Assembly: GCF_036860695.1 (NCBI RefSeq)
Contig: NZ_JAYKGJ010000002.1
Coordinates: forward strand, 192,001 to 256,000
From: Rosettibacter firmus
GTDB taxonomy: Bacteria; Bacteroidota; Ignavibacteria; Ignavibacteriales; Melioribacteraceae
Direction: 5' to 3'
Length of the DNA: 64,000 bases
In this document: piece after piece, positions 8,336-17,629 of the stretch
Numbering within the stretch: position 1 is the first letter of the stretch
Layout: every line of letters starts with the position of its first letter
Notes under the pieces: model-generated
Databases searched by the model: none
The model's input: only the letters and a program-made list of their open reading frames with translations
What the model was told of the DNA's origin: nothing
Program-made: the position numbers and the translations under genes

Positions 8336-8362
8336 AAAAGGGGCAATTAAAGCCCCTTTTTT
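8336..8362. terminator. Intrinsic terminator, probably bidirectional
   Basis: AAAAGGGGC and GCCCCTTTT form a perfect 9-bp stem around a 7-nt loop, with a T-run on the plus strand and a shorter one on the minus strand. It abuts the stop codon of the leftward gene ending at 8361, so its main job is to end that transcript. Confidence 0.8.
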
Positions 8363-10061
8363 ATGCTTTCATTCTTTCGCCTTTTTCTTCTTTACTGAAG
8401 ATCCAGCCAACTACTTTGCCAATATCAATTGTTTCAAAATTATTCCAGTATTTTTTTGTTCTTACAAACATCGAACTTGTATCATCTGGAGGTATTTGTT
8501 CTGTTTCTTCAATAATAGTTTTTATTCTTGATTGCCATATTTTCATGCTTTGAGGTCGTAAGTCTACCCATCCATCGTGTGCCCATAAATCAATTTTATC
8601 TTGTGTAATTTCAAGTTCATTTTCACCCCGATATGGTGGAATTTTAATTTCATTACCTCTAAGAAGTGAGTGACCATCTGGTAAAAGAATTGGAATTCCA
8701 ATTGATATTATTTCATTGCGAAGTTTTGAATCTTTCTTTATGTATTCAAATGCTTTTTGAGATAAACTTTCTGGTGTCTCATTTAATATTTGCTTCATTG
8801 TACCACAAATAATTTTAAGCAAATTGATTTCGTGTAAAAGTTTTGACAGTCTTGGAGGTCCTAATAACTCAAATGCAACACTATTTACATTATGTATTTT
8901 CTCAAGTTCTTTTAATTTTTCAATTGCTGAATGTTGTAAAAATCCAGCACGATATGTAGGTTCTAATGTTGCATTATCGAGAGCATTGATAATATCGTGG
9001 CCTGTGTTGCCACCTTTTATTTCATAGATGACATCATCAGCAATTTCTTCTGGTGTTACATATTCCATTTGACCTTGAGTTGTAATGGATTCAAATTCTC
9101 CAAGAGAAAAAGTACCATTTTCACCAGTATCAATAAAAACAGATTTTAAATGTTCACCCGTAGATTTAAATTTTTTATCCAGATCTAATTTTAATTTTCC
9201 ATTTAATGGAATAGCGTCTTCTATTGATATGTTTAATAATTCAATTGGTTTTCCACCTTTTTTAATTTCTCCATATTCTATTTTTTTCCATGCTATTGCA
9301 GCAGTTGGTTTTATTTCTTTTGTGATTGGTCCCTCGGGAGTTCTTCCCATTAAAAATAGTAATAGAGTATGTGCACCTGCAACAGCAGATTTACTTAATA
9401 ATACTCTTGAAGGTTTTTCCTCGCTGTGTGTGTATGGAATATTTAATCCCATTCCTCCAGTACCACTGGTTCCAATTTTAACGTAAATTTTAGTACCAGC
9501 TTTATTCATTGAATTATAGAGTATCTGAACATGACGAATTAGTTGAGGTACATACTCTGTACAAAAAATTTTTTCTGTCTCTTCTGCTAATATTTCAGCA
9601 GATGGTTTTTTCTCCAGTAACTTTTTAATTCTATAATATCTTGAATATACATCTTGATAAGCAATTGCAGTGGCAGAGTTAACACAATCAATAATTATTT
9701 CTGGTTTAAATTCCATTAATAGATGATAGATTGATGAACTTTGCAATATCTCATCATTTAATTCTTCCATAATATCTTGCATAATAATTTTTCTTGTAAC
9801 AGGATTATCTAATAATTCATTACGATTCATATCCTTGTAGTCATAACGTATAAAAATATTGCCCCACCATGGAATGAAATAATCATCTGGAAGTTGAGGA
9901 AAATCTTTTTTCAACTTTTCAACTTCCTCTTCGGCTTCTTCTTTTTTAAGAGAAGTAACAATTATTTTTTTTGGTTTTTCTGGGATAAGTTTTCTTATAA
10001 CAGCATTGCCAACTAATCCCCATCCCCCTAATACTAAAACAGTTTTGTTTTGAATATCCAT
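8361..10061 (-). CDS. Large NAD(P)-binding Rossmann-fold protein (SDR-related), function unknown
   Basis: 566 residues from ATG 10061, chosen over the open frame extending to 10121 because GGAG lies 7 nt upstream and the Rossmann motif then starts near residue 9. VLVLGGWGLVGNAVIRKL is a clear dinucleotide-binding loop. A Ser-rich KIGTSGTGGMGLNIPYTHSE segment follows near residues 195-215, and FELLGPPRLSKLLHE and LLPDGHSLLRG occur further on. It is about twice the size of a normal SDR, so the C-terminal ~300 residues form one or more extra domains I do not recognise. There is no signal peptide. The enzyme's substrate is unknown. It is transcribed alone, opposite to the ptsN-hisS operon. Confidence 0.65.
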   Translation of the reverse strand: MDIQNKTVLVLGGWGLVGNAVIRKLIPEKPKKIIVTSLKKEEAEEEVEKLKKDFPQLPDDYFIPWWGNIFIRYDYKDMNRNELLDNPVTRKIIMQDIMEELNDEILQSSSIYHLLMEFKPEIIIDCVNSATAIAYQDVYSRYYRIKKLLEKKPSAEILAEETEKIFCTEYVPQLIRHVQILYNSMNKAGTKIYVKIGTSGTGGMGLNIPYTHSEEKPSRVLLSKSAVAGAHTLLLFLMGRTPEGPITKEIKPTAAIAWKKIEYGEIKKGGKPIELLNISIEDAIPLNGKLKLDLDKKFKSTGEHLKSVFIDTGENGTFSLGEFESITTQGQMEYVTPEEIADDVIYEIKGGNTGHDIINALDNATLEPTYRAGFLQHSAIEKLKELEKIHNVNSVAFELLGPPRLSKLLHEINLLKIICGTMKQILNETPESLSQKAFEYIKKDSKLRNEIISIGIPILLPDGHSLLRGNEIKIPPYRGENELEITQDKIDLWAHDGWVDLRPQSMKIWQSRIKTIIEETEQIPPDDTSSMFVRTKKYWNNFETIDIGKVVGWIFSKEEKGERMKA

Positions 10062-10143
10062 AAAGGCTCCATTAACATTTTTTTTGTAAGAAAAATTACA
10101 GTTTGTTAATGCAGTCTGCAAGAAAATTACAATTTTAATTTAA

Positions 10144-11960: not shown

Positions 11961-12479
11961 TTGTCTTTAAGAAAATTAAAAAATATCCCGAAGATCCCAA
12001 AAACAAGGAAAAAGAAACCTGCTACTATTATTGCTTCGATTCCATTGAAGAAGCCAGATAAACTCGAATTTTATTGTAGAGCTTATTTTAAATACGATCC
12101 TAAACTTAAAAAACAGTTTACAGCATTTTTAATAGAAACAAGTATTGAGTTTACAAATTTTTTCTATGAAGTTTCTGCTGAATTAGTTCAGGAAAAAAAT
12201 GTTCTATATATTGTTATAACAGGATTGGTTGCGAGAATGGATAAAGTGCCAGAAGTTTCTCCAGCAAGAAAAGAAATATTACTTGATGTATTAAGCGGCA
12301 TATATACTATTAATGTTGTTAAGCAAGATGGAGCAATAAATTCTGCAGAATTTGATTTTGATATAATTAATAAAAAAATTCAATTAATTAAAGAATTTAT
12401 TCCTAAAAAGAAAAACAACCGTTTCTTTTGTAAATTTGAAGTAGCCAAAGAAAACTTTACATTCCCCGAATCTTATTAA
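11961..12479 (+). CDS. Conserved hypothetical protein, hisS-rlmB operon
   Basis: 172 residues starting at TTG 11961 immediately after the hisS stop; AGGTGA upstream supports this start. The N-terminus is a basic tail (LRKLKNIPKIPKTRKKKP) that could bind RNA. The middle (LEFYCRAYFKYDPKLKKQF...) is mixed alpha/beta. I do not recognise a family. Position between hisS and rlmB suggests a translation-linked role, but this is only context. There is no signal peptide or membrane segment. Confidence 0.7.
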   Translation: MSLRKLKNIPKIPKTRKKKPATIIASIPLKKPDKLEFYCRAYFKYDPKLKKQFTAFLIETSIEFTNFFYEVSAELVQEKNVLYIVITGLVARMDKVPEVSPARKEILLDVLSGIYTINVVKQDGAINSAEFDFDIINKKIQLIKEFIPKKKNNRFFCKFEVAKENFTFPESY

Positions 12480-13453: not shown

Positions 13454-14554
13454 ATGGAAGCAGTTGAAAAACCAAAGTTTGCTGTAATTGGTGCTGGTCA
13501 TGGTGGACTTGCAATGGCTGGACATCTTTCTCTGATGGGCTTTCAGGTTAATTTATTTAATCGATCAGAAGAAAGATTGTGGGGAGTCAAAACAACAGGA
13601 GGTATTCGAATAGAAAGTGATTTTGGTCTAAATGGTTTTGGAAAAGTTAATATAGCTACAACTAATATCGAAGAAGCAATAAGTGATGTTGATATAATTA
13701 TGGTGGTAGTTCCTGCTACTGCACACAGATACATTGCTGAAATCTCGGCTCCATACTTAAAAGATGGTCAAATAATTATCTTGAATCCTGGAAGAACATT
13801 TGGAGCTCTCGAATTTAGACAGGTATTAAATAGTTTGAATGTTACAAAGGATGTAATAATTGCAGAAGCACAAACTTTTATTTATGCATCACGTGCAATG
13901 AATCCAGGACAGGTTAGAATTTTTAGAATTAAAAACTCCATACCACTGGCTTCAATTCGAGCTTATCTAATTCCAGAAGTAATAAAAAGAATTCGTGTTG
14001 CATATCCTCAATTTGTTCCGGGTGACAATATATTCAAAACAAGTTTTGATAATATTGGTGCAGTTTTCCATCCATCGTTATGTGTTTTAAATGCAGGCTG
14101 GATAGAAGATGATGAAGAATTTGAATTTTATTATCAGGGAGTTACTCAGTCTGTTGCAAAAGTTCTTGAACAAGTCGATTATGAAAGAGTTAAAGTTGCA
14201 GAAGCTCTGGGCATTCGATCAATAACCGCTCGTGAATGGCTATATCTTGCTTATAGCGCTGTTGGAAATAATTTATATGAATCTATGAAAGCAAATCCAG
14301 GTTATCGTGGTATTAAAGCTCCAAATAGACTAAATATGAGATATATCACTGAAGATGTTCCTACAAGCCTTGTTCCAATAGCTTCTGTTGGGAAAAAGTT
14401 TGGAGTTGAAACACCAACTATTAATTCAATCATTCATCTTGCATCAATATTAACACAAACAGATTACTGGCAGCAAGGAAGAACTGTCGAAAAACTAAAT
14501 ATTAAAGATATGTCATTAAAACAACTTCGTTTACTGGCTATTGGTGAAAAATAA
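13454..14554 (+). CDS. Opine-type NAD(P)-dependent dehydrogenase
   Basis: 366 residues from ATG 13454, which has GGAG 7 nt upstream; the in-frame TTG at 13418 has no such site. The N-terminal Rossmann domain starts with FAVIGAGHGGLAMAGHLSLMG. The C-terminal domain is of the octopine/nopaline dehydrogenase family, with the catalytic-type His at ~206 in NIGAVFHPSLCVLNAGW. Enzymes of this family reductively join an alpha-keto acid to an amino group. The substrate here is unknown. It is followed 12 bp later by a B12-binding protein and then by an asparagine-synthetase-like gene, which suggests a common product. Confidence 0.8.
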   Translation: MEAVEKPKFAVIGAGHGGLAMAGHLSLMGFQVNLFNRSEERLWGVKTTGGIRIESDFGLNGFGKVNIATTNIEEAISDVDIIMVVVPATAHRYIAEISAPYLKDGQIIILNPGRTFGALEFRQVLNSLNVTKDVIIAEAQTFIYASRAMNPGQVRIFRIKNSIPLASIRAYLIPEVIKRIRVAYPQFVPGDNIFKTSFDNIGAVFHPSLCVLNAGWIEDDEEFEFYYQGVTQSVAKVLEQVDYERVKVAEALGIRSITAREWLYLAYSAVGNNLYESMKANPGYRGIKAPNRLNMRYITEDVPTSLVPIASVGKKFGVETPTINSIIHLASILTQTDYWQQGRTVEKLNIKDMSLKQLRLLAIGEK

Positions 14555-14566
14555 AAGGAATATTTT

Positions 14567-16198
14567 ATGAATAATAAAAAATTAATTCTTGGTTCTGCAA
14601 TTGGAAATTGTGTTCACATTGGAGGTCTAAATCATTTTCTTCGAATTGCGGAACTGGAAGGTTATAAAACTTATTCTCTTGGTCCTGCAGTTCCACTCGA
14701 AAGATTATTCAGTGAGATTAATAGATTATCTCCTGATATTGTTGCTGTTAGTTATCGTCTTACACCTGAAGTAGCAGATAAACTTTTTGATGAGTTGAAA
14801 GAATTAATCAATCAAAGAGCACAAAATATTAAATTTATATTTGGAGGAACTCCATCTGTTGCCGAGATAGCTCGTAAAAAAAATATTTTTGAAAAAATAT
14901 TTGATGGAACGGAAAGTTTTGATGATGTTAGAGCTTATTTAAGAGGGACACAGAAAAAAAATCTTAACGAAATTTATCCTCAAACACTCTTGGAAAGAAT
15001 AAATCAGAAATATCCATACCCAATTTTAAGACATCATTTTGGAAGACCTTCACTCGAAGAAACAATTGAAGGGATTAAAAAAATATCTGAAGCTCAGGTA
15101 CTTGATGTTATATCACTTGGTACAGATCAAAATGCACAGGAATTCTTTTTCAATCCAGAATTAATGAAACCAGAATTAAACGGAGCAGGTGGTGTGCCTG
15201 TTAGAAAAAAAGAAGATTTGATTGCATTATATCAAGCATCAAGATGTGGGAATTATCCATTAATGCGTTGTTACAGTGGTACAAATGATTTAATTAAATG
15301 GGCAGAAATGAGTGTCGAAACAATTCGTAATGCATGGGCAGCAATCCCATTAACCTGGTATAGTGTAATGGATGGAAGATCTAAAAGACCACTTGAAGTT
15401 TCTATTGCAGAGAATCAAAAAGCAATGCGCTGGTATGCAGAACGTAATATTCCGGTTGAAGTAAATGAATCGCATCAATGGAGTTTACGTGATGCTCACG
15501 ATTCTCTTGCAGTTGCTATGGCATTTCTTGCTGCATACAATGCTAAAAAAGTTGGAGTTAAAAATTATGTAGCTCAATTTATGTTTAACACTCCACCAGG
15601 AACATCTCCACAAATGGATTTAGCAAAAATGATGGCAAAGAATGAATTAATTGAAGAATTAAGAGATGATAATTTCAATATAATTCGAGAAGTTCGTGCT
15701 GGTATCGCACATTTTTCACCTGATCCACAAATTGCAAAAGGTCAGCTTGCAGCTTCTGCATTGATTAGTTTATCTCTTAAACCACATATACTTCATGTTG
15801 TGGCATATTGCGAAGGAGACCATGCAGTATATCCAGAAGAACTTATTGAAAGTTGTAATATAGTTCATGGTGTAATTCAAAATTCACTCCATGGTTTGCC
15901 AGATGTATCAAATGATGAAAAAATTATTGAGCGAAAAAATCAACTAAAAGAAGAAGCAGGAACTCTACTGCGAGCAATAAAAAATTTTGGAGCGAATTTA
16001 AGTAACGATCCCTGGTCCGATCCAAAAGTATTAGCTTCGGCGATTAAAATAGGAATACTAGATACACCTCATTTTATTGGTAATCCTCATTTGTGTGGTA
16101 AAATAAAAACCAATTTAATCAATGGGGCGTGGTATGCAATAGATAATGATGGAAACATTTTAAAAGAGAAAGAAAGATTGAAAGAATATTTAGATTAA
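14567..16198 (+). CDS. Cobalamin-binding, mutase-like protein
   Basis: 543 residues. Residues ~1-130 look like a B12-binding domain: GNCVHIGGLNHFLRIAELEG matches DxHxxG with Cys in place of Asp, then IVAVSYRLT and FIFGGTP at the expected positions. The remaining ~400 residues look like the TIM-barrel catalytic domain of adenosylcobalamin carbon-skeleton mutases, glutamate-mutase-E type (AAIPLTWYSVMDGRSKRP, QFMFNTPPGTSPQMD, AGIAHFSPDPQIAKGQ). That likeness is a fold-level impression. If correct, the protein fuses the two mutase subunits that are separate in glutamate mutase. Substrate unknown. AAAGGA precedes the ATG. Confidence 0.6.
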   Translation: MNNKKLILGSAIGNCVHIGGLNHFLRIAELEGYKTYSLGPAVPLERLFSEINRLSPDIVAVSYRLTPEVADKLFDELKELINQRAQNIKFIFGGTPSVAEIARKKNIFEKIFDGTESFDDVRAYLRGTQKKNLNEIYPQTLLERINQKYPYPILRHHFGRPSLEETIEGIKKISEAQVLDVISLGTDQNAQEFFFNPELMKPELNGAGGVPVRKKEDLIALYQASRCGNYPLMRCYSGTNDLIKWAEMSVETIRNAWAAIPLTWYSVMDGRSKRPLEVSIAENQKAMRWYAERNIPVEVNESHQWSLRDAHDSLAVAMAFLAAYNAKKVGVKNYVAQFMFNTPPGTSPQMDLAKMMAKNELIEELRDDNFNIIREVRAGIAHFSPDPQIAKGQLAASALISLSLKPHILHVVAYCEGDHAVYPEELIESCNIVHGVIQNSLHGLPDVSNDEKIIERKNQLKEEAGTLLRAIKNFGANLSNDPWSDPKVLASAIKIGILDTPHFIGNPHLCGKIKTNLINGAWYAIDNDGNILKEKERLKEYLD

Positions 16199-16249
16199 AA
16201 TATTTCTTTAAAGACTAAATTTTTACTTCATAGTATAGGAGTTGATATT

Positions 16250-17584
16250 ATGGCAGGTATAGCAGGAATAAATAAACCAGATCAAAATAAGTTAATCGAT
16301 AAAATGCTTGATAAAATTTCTTATCGAGGCAATGCAAAAAAAATTATATTCTCTTCAAAATATTCTACAATGGGAATAATTACTAACGGTATACAATCTA
16401 AAGATGTTGATTCATTTATTAAAGAAAATTGTGTTAAAGATTACTTTGGAGAAGAACATTTAGCAGAAGCAAAAGAAATTGATGGTACTTTACAATTAAA
16501 AAGAGATGTATTAGGTGTAGCTCCGTTATATTATGGATATAATGTTGAAGGTACTTTATGTTTTGCATCAGAATTTAAAGCTATGCTCGAAGTTACAAAA
16601 GACATAAAAGAACTTTTACCGGGAACTATTTTAATAGATAATAAACCAGTTCAGTATTTTAAAGTAAAAGCAGATCACTCTTTGAACTATGAACAGAATA
16701 TAATTGCACAACAATTATTTAATTTACTTGATGATAAAATTAAAAAAAGTGTATCTGATAATAAGGCATGTTGCTGGTTATCAGGTGGACTTGATTCAAG
16801 TATAATGGCATCTTTGTTATCTCAATATGTTGATAAATTATATACTTTTTCTGCAGGTGTAAAAGGTGCACAAGATCTTGAATACTCAAAGATAATGAGT
16901 GATTATCTGAAATCTATTCATCATGAAATTATTGTTACTCCTGAAGAGATGATAAAAATATTACCTGATGTTATTTATCATCTCGAAACTTTTGATGCGT
17001 TGCTTATAAGATCCAGTATAACAAATTTTATTGTGTCAAAAGAAGCATCAAATTATGTTGAACATGTATTCTCTGGTGAAGGTGGTGATGAATTGTTTGG
17101 TGGGTATGATTACTTAAAAAAAATCCCCTTGAAAAAACTAAATGATGAATTAATTGATATTACATATAGACTGCATAATACAGCATTACAAAGAGTTGAT
17201 AGAAGTGCTGCTGCTTTTGGAACTACTGCAAGTGTAATTTTTGCTAATCCTGATGTAGTGGAATTTGCATTTAAGATTTCTCCACAACTTAAGATTATGA
17301 ATGGTAAAGAAAAATGGATTTTGAGATTATCGATGAAAGATAAACTTCCAAAAGAAATATTTGATAGAGCCAAAGCAAAATTCTGGGAAGGAGCTGGTGT
17401 TGGAGAAATTCTTGCTGAATATGCAAATAAAAAAATTTCTGATTCAGATTTTCAAAAAGAAAGAAAATTAAAAAATGGCTGGGAATTAAATTCTAAAGAA
17501 GAACTTTTGTATTATAGAATATTTAAGGAACACTTTGGTGACCTGGATAATTTAGATTGGATGGGAAAAACAAAAATTATTTAG
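16250..17584 (+). CDS. Asparagine-synthetase-like ligase with inactivated glutaminase domain
   Basis: 444 residues, shorter than typical AsnB (over 500). It starts MAGIAGI where active enzymes have MCGIAGI, so the nucleophilic Cys is replaced by Ala and glutamine hydrolysis should be lost. The synthetase domain is intact: PPi loop SGGLDSS at ~178-184 and SGEGGDELFGGYDYL at ~276-290. It probably forms an amide using ATP and free ammonia or another amine. It is the third gene of the opine dehydrogenase/B12 cluster, 51 bp after its neighbour, with AGGAG before the ATG, and ends at a strong terminator. Confidence 0.8.
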   Translation: MAGIAGINKPDQNKLIDKMLDKISYRGNAKKIIFSSKYSTMGIITNGIQSKDVDSFIKENCVKDYFGEEHLAEAKEIDGTLQLKRDVLGVAPLYYGYNVEGTLCFASEFKAMLEVTKDIKELLPGTILIDNKPVQYFKVKADHSLNYEQNIIAQQLFNLLDDKIKKSVSDNKACCWLSGGLDSSIMASLLSQYVDKLYTFSAGVKGAQDLEYSKIMSDYLKSIHHEIIVTPEEMIKILPDVIYHLETFDALLIRSSITNFIVSKEASNYVEHVFSGEGGDELFGGYDYLKKIPLKKLNDELIDITYRLHNTALQRVDRSAAAFGTTASVIFANPDVVEFAFKISPQLKIMNGKEKWILRLSMKDKLPKEIFDRAKAKFWEGAGVGEILAEYANKKISDSDFQKERKLKNGWELNSKEELLYYRIFKEHFGDLDNLDWMGKTKII

Positions 17585-17597
17585 AGATAAATAGTAT

Positions 17598-17629
17598 GCT
17601 GTCCTCCAAACTTAAGAGGACAGCAATTT
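17598..17629. terminator. Bidirectional terminator between convergent genes
   Basis: GCTGTCCTC and GAGGACAGC form a perfect 9-bp stem with a 9-nt loop followed by AATTTTTATT. It lies in the 45-bp gap between two convergent stop codons. Confidence 0.85.

Follow-up and report, generated by a model that had tools for sequence, protein, structure and literature searches.

Described relatives

The nearest described counterpart of this locus is an operon of Halothermothrix orenii (Hore_09740-09750), in which an octopine dehydrogenase is followed by a cobalamin-binding protein; it was noted in 2009 in thermophilic anaerobes, with no function given, the second protein being called distantly methionine-synthase-like and the pair being thought confined to a few hot anaerobes (PMC2626281). 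Almost certainly this is the same dehydrogenase/mutase pair as ours, matched here by description and not by the sequences of the Hore genes, but the amide synthetase that makes up our trio goes unmentioned there (PMC2626281). A sequence-only reading of the present DNA had known of no described pathway with these three enzymes, which still holds as to function, but not for the pair itself. Our literature searches gave nothing relevant on opine dehydrogenase in connection with a mutase, an osmolyte or cobalamin.

Each of the three proteins has well-studied relatives. Arthrobacter N-(1-D-carboxylethyl)-L-norvaline dehydrogenase (CENDH, 1bg6) is homologous over its full length to our dehydrogenase and shares its His and Asp positions, which we take to be catalytic, but genes of our type, unlike that of CENDH, nearly always adjoin a mutase gene. 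Glutamate mutase (GlmS and GlmE, with GlmL) has in common with the second protein the mutase barrel fold, a B12 domain and an association with a GlmL-family reactivase, whereas our protein is a single chain with its B12 domain at the N-terminus, carries the motif as CxHxxG, has a structural identity of about 15%, falls below the PF06368 cut-off and is linked to an opine dehydrogenase. Escherichia coli AsnB (1ct9) shares with the third protein the synthetase domain with SGEGxDE, Arg324 and Lys449, but in ours both aspartate-binding threonines are replaced and, in the clade to which it belongs, the glutaminase Cys and pocket have been lost. A last relative is the osmolyte pathway for N-acetylglutaminylglutamine amide (NAGGN; asnO-ngg), in which a small zwitterion that serves osmoprotection receives its amide cap from an AsnB-type amidotransferase; unlike our trio, that pathway has neither an opine dehydrogenase nor a B12 mutase.

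The locus

In the window, by which we mean the whole 64,000-nucleotide stretch of Rosettibacter firmus DNA that was analysed, the three genes lie on the same strand with gaps of 12 and 51 nt (Table 1) and, as the sequence-only reading had it, are closed by a strong terminator. The hairpin has a GC-rich stem of 10-11 bp, followed on the + strand by ATTTTTATT; the hairpin-finding program lists it on the - strand because the + strand loop is just above the program's limit. A phosphate acetyltransferase (pta) gene is convergent with the operon, and the terminator probably serves both.

Table 1. Features of the three-gene locus, in window coordinates
Feature	Coordinates	Strand	Evidence
Opine dehydrogenase (octopine/nopaline dehydrogenase family, CENDH branch), 366 aa	13454..14554	+	PF02317, 1bg6, H206/D301
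Single-chain B12-dependent mutase-like protein, 543 aa, core of the finding	14567..16198	+	PF02310, model, 1cb7_B match
Rossmann-type B12-binding domain, residues 1-130	14567..14956	+	4jgi_A match, H17/G20 invariance
CVHIGG, CxHxxG form of the B12 DxHxxG motif, residues 15-20	14609..14626	+	sequence
Mutase TIM barrel and C-terminal part, residues 135-540, no Pfam family matched	14969..16186	+	profile searches, model
AsnB-type amide synthetase, degenerate glutaminase domain, altered aspartate-binding motif (ETFDALLIRS), 444 aa	16250..17584	+	PF00733, 1ct9, residue mapping, tree
Hairpin then T-run, intrinsic terminator	17597..17625	+	sequence

The first protein was rightly taken for an opine dehydrogenase: it matches PF02317 (E 4e-47), with both the helical domain of that family and an N-terminal Rossmann domain present, and among solved structures 1bg6 comes closest (E 2e-74, 354 residues aligned). 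Of 103 mutase-linked relatives, at least 97% retain H206 and D301, which align with the His and Asp of 1bg6 mentioned above. Judging from its family, the enzyme would reductively condense an amino acid with a keto acid.

The second protein bears out the earlier suggestion of a single-chain B12 mutase, including the CxHxxG form of its motif. PF02310 matches residues 7-99 (E 3e-8), H17 and G20 are invariant in an alignment of 35 sequences, and the motif, CxHxxG in the family, takes the DxHxxG form in a distant relative (locus L004), as DVHTLG. Further along the chain, R155, H156, H157, D187, Q188, R213, R234, Y236, E298, N300, H303, R308 and R377 are invariant as well. The structure prediction (pLDDT 92.2) yields both a cobalamin fold, with the B12 domain matching the cobalamin-binding protein 4jgi_A (Z 16.0, 2.0 Å over 119 residues), and a mutase barrel; the model as a whole is closest to glutamate mutase E (1cb7_B, Z 33.5, 376 residues, 3.0 Å), followed by lysine 5,6-aminomutase (Z 31) and methylmalonyl-CoA mutase (Z 23). 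The same genome has a cobalamin adenosyltransferase gene, which speaks for the pathway proposed below; MutL was not found there, and an hhalign alignment is weak around the positions of the glutamate-binding Arg100, Arg149 and Arg277 of GlmE, two points that count against it. Reactivase genes are linked to the family: a GlmL gene (606 bits, cut-off 475) directly precedes the mutase in L170, MutL/GlmL-family genes lie at most two genes away in L082, L169 and L184, and two mutase-MutL fusion proteins adjoin a dehydrogenase. We rejected a PLP aminomutase (lysine 5,6- or ornithine 4,5-aminomutase) because no Lys in the B12 domain (residues 1-130) is invariant among the 35 aligned sequences, as would be needed for PLP binding, and likewise a methylcobalamin methyltransferase: the B12 domain does resemble corrinoid methyltransferase proteins, but the remainder of the chain is a mutase barrel. 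We consider it likely that proteins of this type are adenosylcobalamin carbon-skeleton mutases acting in a pathway shared with their neighbours.

The third protein matches PF00733 (E 9e-56) and AsnB itself (1ct9, E 7e-48), and, in a comparison with the NAGGN pathway, scores 116 bits against TIGR03104, far under the cut-off of 570. The replacement of Cys2 by Ala is real (MAGI instead of MCGI at the start), and the equivalents of E. coli AsnB R49, N74, G75, E76 and D98 have gone with it, while about ten sister proteins keep glutaminase Cys1 and the pocket intact. Mutase-linked relatives, this one included, retain Glu348 and Lys449 (E. coli numbering), and every one has the motif E[ST]xDxx[LI][IV]RS, against ETYDVTTIRAS in E. 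coli AsnB, so that Thr321/Thr322 become Leu-Leu in our protein and x-[LI] in all linked copies. With both aspartate-binding threonines replaced, and a normal AsnB kept alongside in some genomes, the substrate is probably something other than aspartate.

Conservation across genomes

One collection holds 300 loci of the mutase family, from more than a dozen phyla of bacteria and archaea, and the genes adjoin one another in related and very distant genomes alike, the same three-gene order recurring in other genera and in dozens of genomes from distant phyla. At 104 of 116 distinct loci the dehydrogenase lies within four genes of the mutase. In 299 genomes of one phylum, of which about a fifth have the mutase family, the dehydrogenase occurs in 57 of the 59 mutase-bearing genomes, usually adjacent, and lies within 5 kb of 56 of the 60 mutase genes (Fisher p 5e-42, uncorrected for relatedness). 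This arrangement is far beyond chance and, because the first two genes stay adjacent across more than a dozen phyla, the pair very probably makes an undescribed small molecule.

The proposal of the trio as a unit needs amending, however: the core is the dehydrogenase/mutase pair, which can be joined by at least two different kinds of third gene, the AsnB type at 37 of the 116 distinct loci and a D-Ala-D-Ala-ligase-like ATP-grasp gene at 21 of the 116, with no locus having both. As about half of the loci have no nearby amide ligase, the third step may be dispensable or missing. A Mur-type ligase was considered as a further third enzyme, but the candidate, which follows the mutase gene in L071, is by its score a FolC (399 bits), and we therefore take its placement as coincidence.

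A possible pathway and its rivals

We think it highly likely that the products of the three genes act one after another in a single dedicated pathway. In the scheme that we propose, an NAD(P)H-dependent opine dehydrogenase would join an amino acid to an alpha-keto acid, giving an N-(carboxyalkyl)amino acid, whose carbon skeleton would be rearranged by a single-chain adenosylcobalamin mutase belonging, by structure, to the glutamate mutase class (alternatively, the mutase might supply an unusual amino acid to the opine). An ATP-dependent synthetase of AsnB descent would then activate a carboxylate of the product and amidate it; the glutaminase-bearing relatives would take ammonia from glutamine, and since the glutaminase has been lost in the window's clade, its synthetase would need free ammonia or another amine. 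In other lineages the ATP-grasp enzyme would stand in for the AsnB type. The sequence-only reading suggested a modified amino acid, an opine amide or a compatible solute; in our scheme the product would most likely be a near-neutral zwitterionic amino-acid derivative that accumulates as a compatible solute. Taken whole, from opine formation to solute, we favour this scheme, if only somewhat.

That the second protein is an ordinary glutamate mutase, converting glutamate to 3-methylaspartate for use by the other two, seems unlikely to us. In favour of it, the closest fold is glutamate mutase E, a GlmL gene lies in some operons and is fused to two relatives, and amidation of 3-methylaspartate would suit an AsnB-type enzyme. 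Against this stand the low structural identity and the altered aspartate-binding threonines, the profile PF06368, which is matched neither by this protein nor elsewhere in its genome and reaches relatives at an E of about 1e-5, below cut-off, and Tepidanaerobacter (L073/G299), which has a true GlmE as well. The third protein might be a plain ammonia-dependent asparagine synthetase, by chance beside an unrelated opine/mutase pair. No other gene of the Asn_synthase family occurs in its genome, AsnA was not found there, and glutaminase-bearing relatives score 642 and 531 against an NCBI AsnB cut-off of 499. Asparagine is made on tRNA in many bacteria, though, TT and LL types coexist in two genomes, most other genomes tested have further AsnB copies, and mutase-linked copies hold the third position in many phyla, so that, with the replaced threonines, we regard this as very unlikely. 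Lactam closure is likewise very unlikely. Here the mutase would convert the opine's alpha-carboxylate to a beta-carboxylate and the synthetase would close the ring, like the beta-lactam and carbapenam synthetases, which also have a dead glutaminase; the substrate of beta-lactam synthetase is a carboxyethyl amino acid, and our protein matches CarA (E 3e-18) and beta-lactam synthetase (E 2e-13). By E-value, the only measure compared, it is nevertheless far closer to AsnB, and a ring-closing enzyme would hardly need the complete glutaminase of the sister proteins.

A more serious question is whether the same three enzymes, in one pathway, make something other than a compatible solute: a surface or wall building block, a metallophore-like opine, a nitrogen store or a fermentation redox sink. 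We find this possible, though we lean against it. The pair of L187, a Bacteroidota relative, belongs to a capsule-type cluster that also encodes sugar transferases, a DegT aminotransferase and an ATP-grasp enzyme, so the module can be put to other uses. The alternative ligase is similar to D-Ala-D-Ala ligase, and three mutase loci have an ornithine-racemase-like gene. Opine dehydrogenases are classical anaerobic redox sinks, but a pure sink has no need of a mutase and an amide ligase. The H. orenii authors did associate the pair with anaerobic life in the heat (PMC2626281). Most mutase loci, however, lie outside glycan or export clusters, no recurrent metallophore receptor or transporter was seen among them, and other neighbours favour a solute. 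MscS-type channels occur in five operons of different phyla, and one more nearby, where roughly 0.7 would be expected in the 1.16 Mb scanned (from about 1.6 copies per genome), a linkage that concerns about 5% of loci and was noticed on inspecting neighbours after the fact. Trehalose-6-phosphate synthase adjoins the module at two loci, and cation antiporter- and MarC-type genes lie near it at others. The channel and trehalose genes are a weak hint of a compatible solute, a product that we hold to be quite conceivable, if short of an even chance, and the molecule perhaps protects cells from salt or heat.

Outlook

The mutase class, the ligase step and the wide distribution of the module all appear to be new. 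To our knowledge, few adenosylcobalamin carbon-skeleton mutases have been described, and every addition to their number has opened up a pathway. The present family has a barrel without a Pfam model and no described reaction, and it is almost invariably linked to an opine dehydrogenase. The boldest version, in which a new mutase family rearranges an opine and the amide-capped product represents a new class of compatible solute in anaerobes and thermophiles, bacterial and archaeal, we offer tentatively, as rather unlikely in full. Whatever the product, the module could account for the ‘octopine dehydrogenase’ genes of many anaerobes.

A conserved gene pair

Gaps of 12 nt and 51 nt separate the three genes (see table), which are preceded by 221 nt of non-coding DNA and a SpoU-type RNA methyltransferase gene, and followed by a hairpin with a T-run and, in convergent orientation, a phosphate acetyltransferase gene. 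The source genome is near-complete at 3.24 Mb, and a scan of one-per-species genomes places the nearest relatives of the gene 2 protein in Melioribacter MAGs (Ignavibacteriota, 79-82%). Elsewhere in the window, proteins of ~570 and 172 aa (8361-10121, minus strand; 11961-12479, plus strand) match no Pfam family at 1e-6, the former having a Rossmann-like GGWGLVG motif at its N-terminal start.

Genes of the cluster, with the basis of their assignment
Gene	Position	Strand	Basis
Gene 1, opine dehydrogenase	13454-14554	+	PF02317 and CENDH match
Gene 2, single-chain B12 mutase-like	14567-16198	+	PF02310 and modelled mutase fold
Gene 3, AsnB-type synthetase	16250-17584	+	closest to E. coli AsnB

The linkage of dehydrogenase and mutase is conserved. 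Our mutase scan of one-per-species genomes gave 300 loci, the best 80 of which span Ignavibacteriota, Bacteroidota, Bacillota, Armatimonadota, Atribacteria, Caldisericota, Aminicenantes, Acidobacteriota, Spirochaetes, Planctomycetota, Omnitrophota, Neomarinimicrobiota, Thermotoga and also archaea, and the dehydrogenase lies within four genes of the mutase in 104 of the 116 distinct loci read (several exceptions are contig ends). Within the Thermoanaerobacter phylum, 59 of 299 genomes carry the mutase and 57 of these the dehydrogenase, which sits within 5 kb of 56 of the 60 mutase genes, mostly at less than 150 bp. The Halothermothrix orenii genome paper had already described what is almost certainly this pair, an octopine dehydrogenase/B12-binding pair in hot anaerobes, assigning it no role and noting distant similarity of the B12-binding protein to methionine synthase (PMC2626281). 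Thermoanaerobacter X514 mutants adapted to ethanol show raised expression of an octopine dehydrogenase gene, possibly that of the pair (PMC3751872). Our literature search found no published pathway for the pair.

The mutase and its probable cofactor

The gene 2 protein (P0002) carries CVHIGG in a PF02310 B12-binding domain (residues 7-99), and ~410 residues matched no family in the Pfam search. In a model built from 35 related sequences (mean pLDDT 92.2, pTM 0.82), residues 136-539 matched glutamate mutase E (GlmE, 1cb7_B) best among solved structures (Z 33.5, 3.0 Å, 376 residues), followed by lysine 5,6-aminomutase (Z 31.1), ornithine 4,5-aminomutase (27.9) and methylmalonyl-CoA mutase (22.9), a ranking identical to that from a four-sequence model; residues 3-127 matched the cobalamin-binding protein 4jgi (Z 16.0, 2.0 Å). 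A PLP aminomutase is disfavoured, since the B12 domain has no invariant Lys in the 35-sequence alignment. Similarity to GlmE in sequence is weak (hhalign, E 4e-4): the Pfam search did not reach PF06368 (GlmE) in P0002, and relatives stay under its cut-off (E ~1e-5). As modelled, then, the gene 2 product belongs to the glutamate mutase structural class of B12 mutases: it shares the GlmE barrel but is a single chain, and by membership it is not a glutamate mutase. Its fold and B12 site are clear; a rearrangement would be its reaction. One Tepidanaerobacter genome (G299; loci L111:1378-2832 and L132) encodes a true GlmE alongside the new mutase.

Adenosylcobalamin mutases are clients of the GlmL/MutL reactivases. 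A GlmL gene (606 bits, cut-off 475) directly precedes the mutase gene at locus L170, MutL/GlmL-family genes lie at most two genes away at three further loci (L082, L169, L184), and at L149 (3306-7007, minus) and L150 (1739-5383, plus) the mutase and a reactivase of MutL/GlmL type are fused in one protein (1233 aa and 1214 aa) beside a divergent opine dehydrogenase. This association ties the family to adenosylcobalamin as cofactor. The Rosettibacter genome has a cobalamin adenosyltransferase; MutL was not found in it.

The dehydrogenase and the variable third gene

Gene 1 is an opine dehydrogenase family member, with PF02317 (Pfam E 4e-47), a Rossmann N-terminus and a full-length match to the Arthrobacter enzyme CENDH (1bg6, E 2e-74). 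Its His206 and Asp301 align with one His and one Asp of 1bg6, and across 103 mutase-linked relatives their conservation is 97% or higher; the enzyme's product would be an opine.

The gene 3 protein finds its best match in E. coli AsnB (E 7e-48), carbapenam and beta-lactam synthetases being clearly more distant. Mapped on AsnB, it retains SGEG with Glu348, Arg324 and Lys449, whereas in the glutaminase Cys1 has become Ala and R49, N74, G75, E76 and D98 are absent; ETYDVTTIRAS, in which Thr321/322 and Arg324 bind aspartate in E. coli AsnB, reads ETFDALLIRSS. All mutase-linked copies elsewhere have x-L or x-I for Thr-Thr, glutaminase intact or not; about ten sister proteins keep an MCGI start and a complete glutaminase pocket, and in the tree Cys1 was lost in the clade of gene 3. 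Thr-Thr-type AsnB proteins, E. coli's included, form a separate, well-supported group; they coexist with the Leu-Leu type in two genomes, and most other genomes tested have further AsnB copies. The altered site, the separate group and this coexistence argue for a dedicated paralogue, its substrate probably other than aspartate; its product would be an amide. Asparagine in Rosettibacter is presumably made on tRNA, because the genome has neither AsnA nor any Asn_synthase-family gene besides gene 3.

An AsnB-type gene is present in 37 of the 116 loci and a D-Ala-D-Ala-ligase-like ATP-grasp gene in 21, never together, and half have neither nearby; three ATP-grasp proteins scored 138-176 bits, under the NCBI Ddl cut-offs (243). 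In three loci (L083, L085:6891-7946, L095) the mutase and ATP-grasp genes are immediately followed by one resembling ornithine racemase, a hint that the pathway involves a basic or D-amino acid. A Mur ligase candidate (L071) scores as FolC and was discounted. A MarC-family membrane protein gene lies 3' of the AsnB-type gene in six loci (L037, L050, L054, L080, L081, L087), possibly encoding the product's transporter.

What might the product be?

MscS-type channel genes belong to five operons of different phyla and lie near one more, against ~0.7 expected in the 1.16 Mb scanned, given ~1.6 MscS genes per genome concerned; trehalose-6-phosphate synthase adjoins two loci, and several have antiporter and MarC genes as neighbours. 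The opine of a neutral amino acid bears one negative charge, which amidation would remove, leaving it neutral like the osmolyte NAGGN. These neighbours, a small sample examined after the fact, and that neutrality make a compatible solute our leading, if tentative, candidate, somewhat short of an even bet. We infer the order of steps as well as the opine, rearrangement, amide and solute role. A Bacteroidota capsule-type cluster (L187:8438-13791, minus) combines an opine dehydrogenase, a distant 621 aa mutase (DxHxxG), an ATP-grasp protein, a DegT aminotransferase and sugar transferases, perhaps making an opine-decorated polysaccharide, and therefore the dehydrogenase/mutase module can be put to other ends.
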